Under the pieces are notes generated by a model that was not told the DNA's origin, ran no database searches, and was given only the letters and a program-made list of their open reading frames with translations. Source: Epilithonimonas xixisoli (GTDB taxonomy: Bacteria > Bacteroidota > Bacteroidia > Flavobacteriales > Weeksellaceae). From it: 64,000 bases of DNA. Both the position numbers and the translations under genes were made by a program. Position 1 is the stretch's first letter. Each line of letters starts with the position of its first letter. The DNA is taken from the NCBI RefSeq assembly GCF_004365655.1, contig NZ_SOEO01000001.1, positions 434,001 to 498,000 on the forward strand. Direction: 5' to 3'. Below, piece by piece: positions 11,418-62,527 of the stretch.

Positions 11418-11527
11418 AGCTTAATCCCGCTATCCACTATATCTTTTTTGCTTTCACAACGTTTGGTCATCAAAAGAAAGTTTGTACCAAAAAGCAAAAA
11501 AGGATGCCGTACCTATCGGGGCTATGG
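11418..11527. repeat. Long imperfect hairpin repeat (family A, copy 1)
   Basis: The left arm starts TAATCCCGCTATCC and runs to ATCTTTTTTGCTTT; the right arm runs from GCAAAAAAGGAT to ATCGGGGCTA. The arms are imperfect inverted complements. A second copy is at 62447-62527, with the same ends but a shorter middle. Together with the terminator and a short CCTGAGCTTGTCGAAGG repeat (11333-11349) it fills the pheT-hemN gap. No transposase is present. Confidence 0.75.
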
Positions 11528-50278: not shown

Positions 50279-50286
50279 TACATTTG
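50279..50286 (+). promoter_or_regulatory. pyrB leader promoter (-7 element)
   Basis: TACATTTG matches TAnnTTTG, 6 bases before the leader ATG. A TTTC instead of TTG lies at the -33 place. Confidence 0.6.
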
Positions 50287-50292
50287 CACCCA

Positions 50293-50367
50293 ATGAATCT
50301 GTTACAGAATTTAGCGACAAAAACAATTGGCAAATTTGCCGACAACAACAATATTTTTTATATTTAA
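50293..50367 (+). CDS. pyrB leader peptide (candidate)
   Basis: 24 codons, beginning MNLLQNLATKTIGKF and ending NNNIFYI. The last codons are encoded by AATATTTTTTATATTTAA, a U-rich tract in the RNA. The stop codon overlaps the first base pairs of a terminator hairpin, 45 bases before pyrB. This is the layout of enterobacterial pyrL, where RNA polymerase pausing in a U-rich leader couples UTP level to readthrough. No PyrR-type binding loop was seen. Confidence 0.55.
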   Translation: MNLLQNLATKTIGKFADNNNIFYI

Positions 50368-50395
50368 CGAAGTCTTTTTAGGCTTCGTTTTTTTT
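50366..50395 (+). terminator. Attenuator terminator before pyrB
   Basis: Stem AACGAAGTC (50366-50374) / GGCTTCGTT (50381-50389, one G-T pair), 6-base loop, then eight T. It ends 18 bases before the pyrB ATG. Confidence 0.85.
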
Positions 50396-50412
50396 ATTTA
50401 AAAATTTGAATT

Positions 50413-51315
50413 ATGATTAAGCTTTCACGCACCTCTACAGAGAGTATAGAGAAAATTTTAAAAGAAGCACAGGAATTTGCCGATGGGAAAATCAGCAAAA
50501 TTGAAGGCGATGTTTTCGCTGCCAACTTGTTTTTCGAAAATAGTACGAGAACAAAAACCAGTTTCGAAGTGGCTGAAAAGAAACTCGGACTCAAAGTTAT
50601 CGATTTCGAAGTTGATAAAAGCTCGATTGCTAAAGGCGAAACACTTTTGGATACGCTTAAGACTTTGGAAGCAATAGGTGTAGAATTGGCGGTTATCAGA
50701 CATTCGGAAAAGAGATATTACGACCAACTGGAAGATGCGAAACTGAGCATTGTAAACGCTGGAGACGGCATTGGAAGCCACCCGACACAAGCAATGTTGG
50801 ATGTGCTCACCGTCATTCAAGAATTCGGAAAGGTAGAAGGTCTGAAAATCGGAATCGTAGGCGATGTAAAGCACAGCCGAGTTGCAAATTCTGATGCAGG
50901 ATTATTCAGAAGATTGGGTGCGAAAGTTTATTTCTCAGGGCCAGAATTTTGGTTTGATGAAGGAATGTTGGTGAACGGAACATATATGCAGTTTGATGAT
51001 TTGGTGAAGGAAGTTGACGTTTTGATTTTGTTAAGAATCCAGCACGAGCGTCACGAGCGTAATTTCAATTTCAAACCGGAAGATTATTTGAAAAAATTCG
51101 GATTGACAAAAGAAAGAGAAGCGAAAATGAAACCGACATCCATTATAATGCATCCGGCGCCAATCAACAGAGGCGTAGAAATTGATTCAGAATTAGTTGA
51201 ATGTGAAAGGTCGAGAATTTTCAAACAAATGCAGAACGGCGTTTTTGCGAGAATGGCAATCCTTAAATTTGATTTGGAAAGTAAAGGATTCAAATTCATC
51301 GACTCCAAAAATTAA
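50413..51315 (+). CDS. pyrB: Aspartate carbamoyltransferase catalytic subunit
   Basis: 300 residues. [20 protein letters not shown] is the carbamoyl-phosphate loop in the form seen in Firmicutes and Bacteroidota; SHPTQAMLD and [11 protein letters not shown] bind Asp and carbamoyl phosphate. First committed step of pyrimidine synthesis. No pyrI is adjacent. It is preceded by the leader and attenuator. Confidence 0.95.
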
Positions 51316-51325
51316 AATATTTATT

Positions 51326-51349
51326 CACGCTTTCGGGCGTGTTTTTTTT
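51326..51349 (+). terminator. pyrB terminator
   Basis: Short stem CACGC (51326-51330) / GCGTG (51337-51341) then eight T. It implies carA has its own promoter or partial readthrough. Confidence 0.65.
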
Positions 51350-51435: not shown

Positions 51436-51511
51436 GCGACGAAGTCGCGACATATTGGTAGAAATAAATCGAATAAAATAAAAGGTGCGAAGCATCGACA
51501 TATTGGTAAAA
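51436..51511 (+). repeat. Direct repeats upstream of carA
   Basis: CGACATATTGGTAGAAA (51448-51464) and CGACATATTGGTAAAAA (51496-51512) are 48 bases apart; each follows a GCGAAG(T/C)-like block. The second overlaps the carA start codon. Confidence 0.65.
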
Positions 51512-52582
51512 ATGAAGAAAAAATTGGTTTTAGAATCCGGCGAAGTTTTTTACGGAACGGGATTCGGAGCAGAGCAGGACACTGCGGGAGAAGTGGTTTT
51601 CAACACGGGAATGACGGGTTATCAGGAATTGATTTCTGACCCAAGTTATTGCGGACAAATCGTTTGTATGACGTATCCTTTGATTGGAAATTATGGCATC
51701 AATCGTGATGATTACGAAAGCATCGAGCCTGCAATCAAAGGTTTGATTGTGAAAGAATTGTGTGATTTGCCTTCCAATTTCAGAACACAGATTACTTTGG
51801 ACGAATTATTCCAAAAGAAAAATCTGTCAGGAATTTCCGGAATCGATACCAGAAGATTGACAAGAATTCTAAGAAGTAAAGGTGTTGAAAAAGGAAAAAT
51901 CGTAAACGCAGATGCAGATGAAAAAGCTGTAATCGAAGAACTAAAAGCGACTCAATTTCCAACAAATCAAGTAGAACAAGTTTCTACAAAAACGTCTTAT
52001 GCAAGTCCGGGAAGAGGTTTCAAAGTGGTTTTGGTGGATTTCGGTTCCAAGTTGGGAATCATCCGCGAATTGTCACAAAGAAATTGTGACATCATTGTAG
52101 TTTCTCACGACACAACTGCTGAAGATATTTTGCTAATGGACCCAGACGGAATTATGCTTTCCAACGGTCCCGGCGACCCGGAAGATAATGCAGAAGCTTT
52201 GGTAATGATTCAGAAATTGCTAGGAAAAGTTCCAATTTTTGGGATTTGTTTAGGTCATCAGTTGATTGGTTTAGCTTGTGGCGCAAAAACTTACAAACTG
52301 AAATTCGGACACAGAGGTGGAAATCATCCAGTTTTGGATTTGGAGAAAAACAAAGTTGCAATCACTTCACAGAATCACGGTTATGCGATTGACCAGGAAT
52401 CTTTGAAAAATACAGATTTGGTAGAAACTCACATCGCTCTGAATGACAGAACAAACGAAGGTGTAAAACACAAGATTCATCCTTGTTTCTCAGTTCAATA
52501 TCACCCGGAAGCAAGTCCAGGTCCGGAAGATGCGAATTATCTTTTTGATGATTTTATCACTTTGATGGAGGATTTTAAGTAA
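51512..52582 (+). CDS. carA: Carbamoyl-phosphate synthase small subunit
   Basis: 356 residues from the ATG at 51512. N-terminal CPSase domain (GAEQDTAGEVVFNTGMTGYQE) and class I glutaminase domain with the Cys nucleophile in GICLGHQLIG (about 252) and QYHPEASPG for His and Glu. It feeds ammonia to CarB. Confidence 0.96.
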   Translation: MKKKLVLESGEVFYGTGFGAEQDTAGEVVFNTGMTGYQELISDPSYCGQIVCMTYPLIGNYGINRDDYESIEPAIKGLIVKELCDLPSNFRTQITLDELFQKKNLSGISGIDTRRLTRILRSKGVEKGKIVNADADEKAVIEELKATQFPTNQVEQVSTKTSYASPGRGFKVVLVDFGSKLGIIRELSQRNCDIIVVSHDTTAEDILLMDPDGIMLSNGPGDPEDNAEALVMIQKLLGKVPIFGICLGHQLIGLACGAKTYKLKFGHRGGNHPVLDLEKNKVAITSQNHGYAIDQESLKNTDLVETHIALNDRTNEGVKHKIHPCFSVQYHPEASPGPEDANYLFDDFITLMEDFK

Positions 52583-52615: not shown

Positions 52616-53065
52616 ATGAGCGAGTTCAGTTTTGAGTATTTAAAAGGAATTTTACATACATATTCTAACTTGAATATGCCTAATAGTACATTGTCTTATA
52701 ATTTTGAAATAGTAGAAGATAAAATTGAGAATGAAATTTTGTATTTAAGACAATATTTCAATTTGCCGATTGAGTGTAAAATGTCAATATTAGATATTAA
52801 TGAATCAGAATTTAAAAAACAGATTTATGATTGGTTTTTTTTAAATGGTGAATTATCTAAAATTAATTTAAATGAAACTCGGCGAAATTATGAAGTGAAT
52901 AATTTTTATAATGTCCTAAATTCCATTAATGAAATAACAAAAATTATTCAAGTGGAATTTGATTCTACAAATGAAACGTATTATGAATTAGGCATTTATT
53001 ACACTTACTTTTTTATACATAATAAAGAATCAAAGTATCTATTGTATTTTAGATATGATGATTAA
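52616..53065 (+). CDS. Hypothetical AT-rich protein between carA and carB
   Basis: 149 residues, rich in Asn, Ile, Tyr and Glu, no signal peptide or membrane helix. Codon use is much more AT-biased than in carA and carB. YLKGILHTYSNLN... and YYELGIYYTYFFIHNKESKYLLYF suggest a mixed alpha/beta fold of the small immunity-protein kind, but no family is recognised. It splits the carA-carB pair, which usually are adjacent. Confidence 0.6.
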   Translation: MSEFSFEYLKGILHTYSNLNMPNSTLSYNFEIVEDKIENEILYLRQYFNLPIECKMSILDINESEFKKQIYDWFFLNGELSKINLNETRRNYEVNNFYNVLNSINEITKIIQVEFDSTNETYYELGIYYTYFFIHNKESKYLLYFRYDD

Positions 53066-62446: not shown

Positions 62447-62527
62447 GGAGCATAATCCCGCTATCCGCTATATCTTTTGCTCTTCGTACCTCATCACAAA
62501 AGGATGTCGCTACTATCGGGGCTAGGG
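62447..62527. repeat. Long imperfect hairpin repeat (family A, copy 2)
   Basis: GAGCATAATCCCGCTATCCGC on the left, CAAAAGGATGTCGCTACTATC and GGGGCTAGG on the right; shares its ends with 11418-11527 but has a shorter middle. CACTTTTCAAAAGTG (62419-62433) just upstream is a separate palindrome. Confidence 0.75.

Follow-up and report, generated by a model that had tools for sequence, protein, structure and literature searches.

In the 64,000-nt window analysed here, which is the whole stretch of Epilithonimonas xixisoli DNA under study, a short open reading frame (ORF) and an intrinsic terminator lie between a promoter box and pyrB. How might such a leader control the gene behind it? The comparative analysis described below leads us to propose, at a probability of about 0.72, that it is a translation-coupled, UTP-sensing transcription attenuator working like that of E. 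coli pyrBI.

Layout of the leader and its predicted transcription start

The controlled gene was identified as pyrB by the NCBIfam model NF002032 (347.8 bits against a cut-off of 263). The initial annotation of this DNA had described a promoter, an ORF starting 6 nt further on, a U-rich tract, a terminator and then pyrB, and every one of these parts is present (Table 1). It missed two features, a pause-like hairpin within the ORF and a 5′ untranslated region (UTR) that is probably almost nil. The 3′ end of the hairpin lies 11 nt before a U-run at 50354-50359, and the terminator stem starts inside the leader stop codon. Compared with shuffled sequences, the fold of the window leader had a z score of -2.42, and 3 of 200 shuffles were equally good. 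No second copy of the leader was found in the genome, where a 32-base pattern, searched with up to 3 mismatches, matched at this site only.

Table 1. Features of the pyrB leader, the genes behind it and other elements of the window
Feature	Position	Strand	Remarks
Sigma-A -7 box TACATTTG	50279..50286	+	sequence; TAnnTTTG type; conserved among relatives
Predicted transcription start (+1)	50291	+	inferred from F. psychrophilum box position; 5′ UTR ~2 nt
Leader ORF MNLLQNLATKTIGKFADNNNIFYI, 24 codons	50293..50367	+	ATG at 50293, stop TAA 50365-50367
Small upstream hairpin TTGGCAAATTTGCCGA, pause-hairpin candidate	50327..50342	+	within leader ORF; -5.9 kcal/mol
A/U-only tract AATATTTTTTATATTT, candidate U-rich pause tract	50350..50365	+	overlaps the last codons of the leader; sequence
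Intrinsic terminator (attenuator)	50366..50395	+	stem 50366-50389, 10 pairs by scan; T-run 50390-50395
pyrB, aspartate carbamoyltransferase catalytic chain, controlled gene	50413..51315	+	NF002032; OTCace_N, OTCace
Terminator-like hairpin	51326-51341		right after pyrB, between pyrB and carA
Direct repeat CGACATATTGGTANAAAT, two copies	51448-51465, 51496-51513		pyrB-carA spacer; second copy reaches carA start
carA	51512..52582	+	downstream of pyrB; possibly partly in the same transcript
149-aa ORF	52616-53065	+	between carA and carB; unmatched in NCBIfam and Pfam at the thresholds used
Rfam Flavo-1 RNA	11419-11527	-	65.6 bits (gathering 42)
Rfam Flavo-1 RNA	62450-62527	-	61.4 bits (gathering 42)

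The transcription start in Table 1 is a prediction obtained by carrying over the box position from Flavobacterium psychrophilum, in which, according to passages of a study of that species, the sigma-A -7 box TAnnTTTG occupies -12 to -5 (PMC9723704). With this start the leader ORF would be almost leaderless; the same passages give a median 5′ UTR of 24 nt and put the leaderless share at 5.5% of mRNAs whose starts were mapped. The pattern of box, 6 nt and ATG is unremarkable on its own, as it occurs three times in the window with 1.4 expected, and in a rough control the box was found within 150 nt of 11 of the 46 window ORFs of at least 150 aa, at distances of 6 to 139 nt. What counts is therefore its conservation.

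Conservation across the Weeksellaceae

A search with the window pyrB matched 162 of 197 family genomes at E <= 1e-60. We assembled 119 family pyrB loci, made up of 40 stretches from beyond the genus (spread over genera), 23 loci from the genus itself and L086-L141. The last are 56 of the best 80 matches listed, among which the best named relatives are Epilithonimonas species; of the other 24, mostly Bacilli, eight were used, for the tree only. Upstream of pyrB these 119 loci comprise 92 distinct sequences, many of them from close relatives. A TAnnTTTG box, an ATG 5-7 nt behind it and a terminator before pyrB were found in 91 of the 92. The remaining one, L079, carries the same element shifted further upstream, with an in-frame stop in the ORF 16 nt before the terminator core. 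Four further loci (L213-L216) also carry the element, L213 without the hairpin.

The gap between box and ATG was 6 nt at 84 of 91 loci, 5 nt at 6 and 7 nt at 1. Spacing this nearly fixed would suit a model in which UTP or CTP acts at initiation, by start-site switching or reiterative transcription between box and ATG, and the terminator sets the basal level only. We saw no conserved homopolymer run at the predicted start by eye, however, and such a model explains neither the hairpin nor the tract nor the frame; we give it hardly any credence.

Some genomes of the family depart from this pattern. A recognisable element was absent from all three loci (L217-L219) of g16, a Weeksellaceae genus with a more distant pyrB. 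Window pyrB had no match in 35 of the 197 family genomes at E <= 1e-60, and when 16 family genomes were searched again at E <= 1e-20, nine, from five genera, gave none. Both the g16 loci and these nine genomes were counted against the pyrBI-type reading. By eye, two of the g16 loci have a different terminator upstream of pyrB.

A covariance model, R1, was built from 14 rows of like register (alignment A2). At E <= 0.1 it had matches in 70 of 100 family genomes, not all of them to pyrB leaders. Ten weak or secondary matches (L250-L259) were inspected; nine follow the end of an ORF on the same strand and resemble gene-end terminators. The other, L253 (32.6 bits), lies between ORFs of the other strand, with no same-strand ORF ending before it. 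Since R1 missed known leaders in two genomes (G036 and G038), it is not very sensitive. At E <= 0.001 it matched 3 of 198 phylum genomes, namely the window's own, one other member of the Weeksellaceae and one from family f3; the f3 match lies between other-strand ORFs and no pyrB was seen after it. Given the insensitivity of the model, this is a weak test of whether the leader is absent outside the Weeksellaceae.

Reading frame, hairpin and terminator

For the tests that follow we used 35 leaders, comprising 34 chosen from 95 items so as to lie below 85% identity, plus L079, with the g16 loci left out. Read from the ATG, 34 of the 35 leaders were free of stop codons as far as 12 nt short of the terminator core, compared with 7 and 9 in the two alternative frames; the number expected from shuffles is 11 (P ~5e-17, assuming independent rows, which they are not fully). 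The initial annotation had the terminator stem begin at the leader stop codon. This is correct for the window and close to the usual arrangement: in 25 of 35 leaders (ORFs of 19-26 codons) the stop precedes the terminator core by 0-10 nt. It is not essential, however; nine ORFs read into or past the terminator, and one ends early.

The sequence within this frame has been conserved in an unusual way. Among the 23 genus loci (17 distinct leaders), none of the third positions in the last ten leader codons varies (0/10). In the same loci variation affects 263 of 300 third positions of pyrB and, ahead of the promoter box, 39 of 52 columns. Third positions vary in 3 of the first 13 leader codons; the first 14 codons contain 15 variable sites, of which 12 fall on a first or second position. 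Judged by these counts, the leader RNA is kept more strictly than the peptide. The 16 nt before the terminator core contain 59.5% U and 9.3% G+C over the 35 leaders, the rest of the ORF 27.4% U. The 17-nt tract contains 6 G/C in L075 and 5 in L080, which was counted against the pyrBI-type reading. With respect to the ORF, the motif ATATTT falls in each of the three phases (21, 4 and 2 leaders); 8 of the 35 lack it. The comparison across relatives that the initial annotation had proposed thus came out in its favour, since leader, U-tract and hairpin are kept (91/92; frame 34/35) while the peptides drift.

A kept frame would also be expected if the attenuator were coupled to translation and the signal were charged tRNA, with a ribosome stalled at Ile, Tyr or Phe codons near the leader end covering the terminator. 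We regard this as the main rival because 30 of 35 leaders have Ile within their final seven codons; Phe is found there in 27 and Tyr in 25. Yet even Ile, the most frequent, is not universal there, and these are the codons that an A/U-rich tract spells. Furthermore, third positions are frozen within the genus, the tract changes frame between genera, and the product of the pathway is pyrimidines. We consider tRNA sensing unlikely. An arrest peptide was also considered and is thought unlikely, because the length and the C-terminal residues of the peptide vary and the tract shifts in frame.

The upstream hairpin was found in 34 of 35 leaders, with 19-28 nt separating its 3′ end from the terminator core. 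Its mean energy over all 35 was -4.7 kcal/mol, compared with -0.56 in 40 shuffled sets (standard deviation of the set means 0.19, lowest -1.12). In L061, L077, L080 and L140 at least 10% of the leader's own shuffles did as well; these four, the missing hairpin of L213 and the early stop of L079 were likewise counted against the pyrBI-type reading. Pair types were counted by a script anchored on each hairpin, because the MAFFT alignment (A1) misplaced the hairpin in several rows; GC, CG, AU, UA and GU pairs are all used across the leaders. Hairpins of this kind pause RNA polymerase 10-12 nt downstream.

The terminator is the strongest element of the leader, with a mean fold of -11.8 kcal/mol over the 35 leaders, and in L060 its stem covaries (GCGAGGAT/GTCCTCGC). 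Strength of this order would also be seen in an unregulated partial terminator whose only effect is to reduce pyrB expression or to yield a small RNA, and most of the side matches of the covariance model that we inspected were ordinary gene-end terminators. The gene upstream of the pyrB leader, however, is a divergent one of Lrp/AsnC type, and the terminator is therefore not the end of another gene. A partial terminator also has no role for the kept frame and the upstream hairpin, and we hold this explanation to be highly improbable.

The UTP-sensing attenuator that we prefer would work as follows. Transcription would start ~2 nt before the leader ATG, and a ribosome would load at the 5′ end at once. 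The polymerase would make the small hairpin and pause ~11 nt on, at the border of the A/U-only tract, and the ribosome could thereby catch up. With plentiful UTP the U-tract would be crossed fast, the polymerase would escape the ribosome, and the terminator would fold and stop transcription before pyrB. With scarce UTP the polymerase would be slow in the U-tract, and the ribosome would come near the end of the ORF and cover the 5′ arm of the terminator. Transcription would then continue into pyrB and perhaps also into carAB.

At 52 of 56 named loci carA lies behind pyrB at a distance of 57-252 nt. carA (carAB) possibly shares the leader control in part; in the genus a terminator-like hairpin intervenes. 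By eye, this hairpin can be seen at the genus loci, and most of the Chryseobacterium loci examined show no clear counterpart. The direct repeat CGACATATTGGTANAAAT in the same spacer has only its two copies in the window at up to 2 mismatches.

PyrR and the origin of pyrB

The initial annotation had seen no PyrR-type anti-antiterminator, and the wider search agrees. NF003549, which we take to be the PyrR model, scored above its cut-off (138 bits) in 0 of 80 family genomes, and PyrR control of the leader was rejected. Weak matches occurred in 63 of the 80 (best 37 bits vs 138); the one in the window's own genome (20 bits) lies inside an ORF to which we assign the name hpt-like. Across the order, 76 of 119 genomes were above the cut-off, and none of the positives listed belongs to the Weeksellaceae. 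By eye, pyrR stands directly upstream of pyrB at 19 of 20 outgroup loci; in the exception, L209, it is ~0.6 kb upstream. Rfam searches of the window and of the leader alone gave nothing at gathering score over the leader and no match to a PyrR-binding RNA.

These searches also bear on the idea that the leader is governed by some RNA-binding protein or by a riboswitch (a ligand-binding RNA) and that the ORF is secondary. The second half of the leader is indeed strongly conserved in nucleotides, and there is a weak excess of pairing between the leader and the 3′ arm of the terminator (2 of 60 shuffled sets equally good). Besides the results for PyrR and Rfam, the leader is only ~105 nt long with two simple hairpins, it has no excess of pairing with the 5′ arm (19 of 60 sets equally good), and its open frame would go unexplained. 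We therefore think a protein or riboswitch very unlikely to be the regulator. For an alternative antiterminator, the pairing figures give no support at the 5′ arm and a weak signal at the 3′ arm; the former was counted for the pyrBI-type reading and the latter against it.

Among the matches listed, PyrB of the Weeksellaceae is 57-64% identical to proteins of Bacilli and 39-46% to those of other Flavobacteriales. In a PyrB tree of 41 rows, Weeksellaceae, Bacilli and g16 stand together, apart from ten other Flavobacteriales (98/99), a grouping to be read with a warning of long branches. The g16 rows, though from the same family, branch outside a set made up of Bacilli and the others (96/91); the root was placed for drawing only. 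Because PyrB is closer to that of Bacilli than to that of other Flavobacteriales, its phylogeny suggests a gene replacement in the Weeksellaceae. A fuller history would be that the family swapped its pyrimidine control: the ancestral pyrR-pyrB was lost, a Bacilli-like pyrB came in, and a pyrBI-style UTP attenuator arose independently of the enterobacterial one on a nearly leaderless ORF. To us the odds for and against this history look even.

Comparison with known attenuators

UTP sensing through polymerase speed is a classic enterobacterial attenuation mechanism. Passages on pyrBI describe a short ORF overlapping a uridine-rich stretch, with UTP altering coupling through that stretch (PMC3641672), and pause sites by which translation and transcription are coupled (PMC4824070). 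The likeness in order to pyrBI that the initial annotation had drawn held up in E. coli pyrL, which likewise has a short ORF over a U-rich stretch, a hairpin upstream of the U-run and an intrinsic terminator (there inside the leader ORF), followed by pyrB. The gap from hairpin to U-run is 10 nt in pyrL and 11 nt in the window. E. coli has a 44-aa ORF running through the terminator, GGGAGGA before the ATG and pyrI behind pyrB. The Weeksellaceae differ in their shorter ORF (19-26 codons in the usual 25 of 35 leaders), its stop at the terminator edge, the probable ~2-nt 5′ UTR, the A/U-only tract and carA behind pyrB. Apparently the proposed attenuator evolved separately from enterobacterial pyrBI, and the likeness that we propose is one of working mode.

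Two other kinds of attenuation invite comparison. PyrR-dependent attenuation, as in the Bacillus pyr operon and the pyrR-pyrB of other Flavobacteriales, is also a terminator-based control of pyrimidine genes; this much is common to both, whereas PyrR was above its cut-off in none of 80 Weeksellaceae genomes. Attenuators of the trp and his type have a short ORF, a pause hairpin and a terminator. The pyrB leaders differ in that no amino acid is universal in their last seven codons and their pairing with the 5′ arm of the terminator does not exceed that of shuffles. In F. psychrophilum, a related bacterium, attenuators with short peptides are suspected upstream of amino-acid operons, and pyrB is not named in the section describing them (PMC9723704). 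We found no title or abstract on a pyrB attenuator in Bacteroidota, which does not establish that none is in print, and nothing on transcription-translation coupling in this phylum.

An independent, family-wide version in Bacteroidota would show that UTP-sensing attenuation evolves repeatedly, and also that one regulatory system, PyrR, was replaced by another at the same step of the pathway. If the swap of control took place, it would imply tight coupling between ribosome and polymerase in bacteria without Shine-Dalgarno-led initiation. The leader is short and directly testable, and it would serve as a natural reporter of transcription-translation coupling in Bacteroidota.
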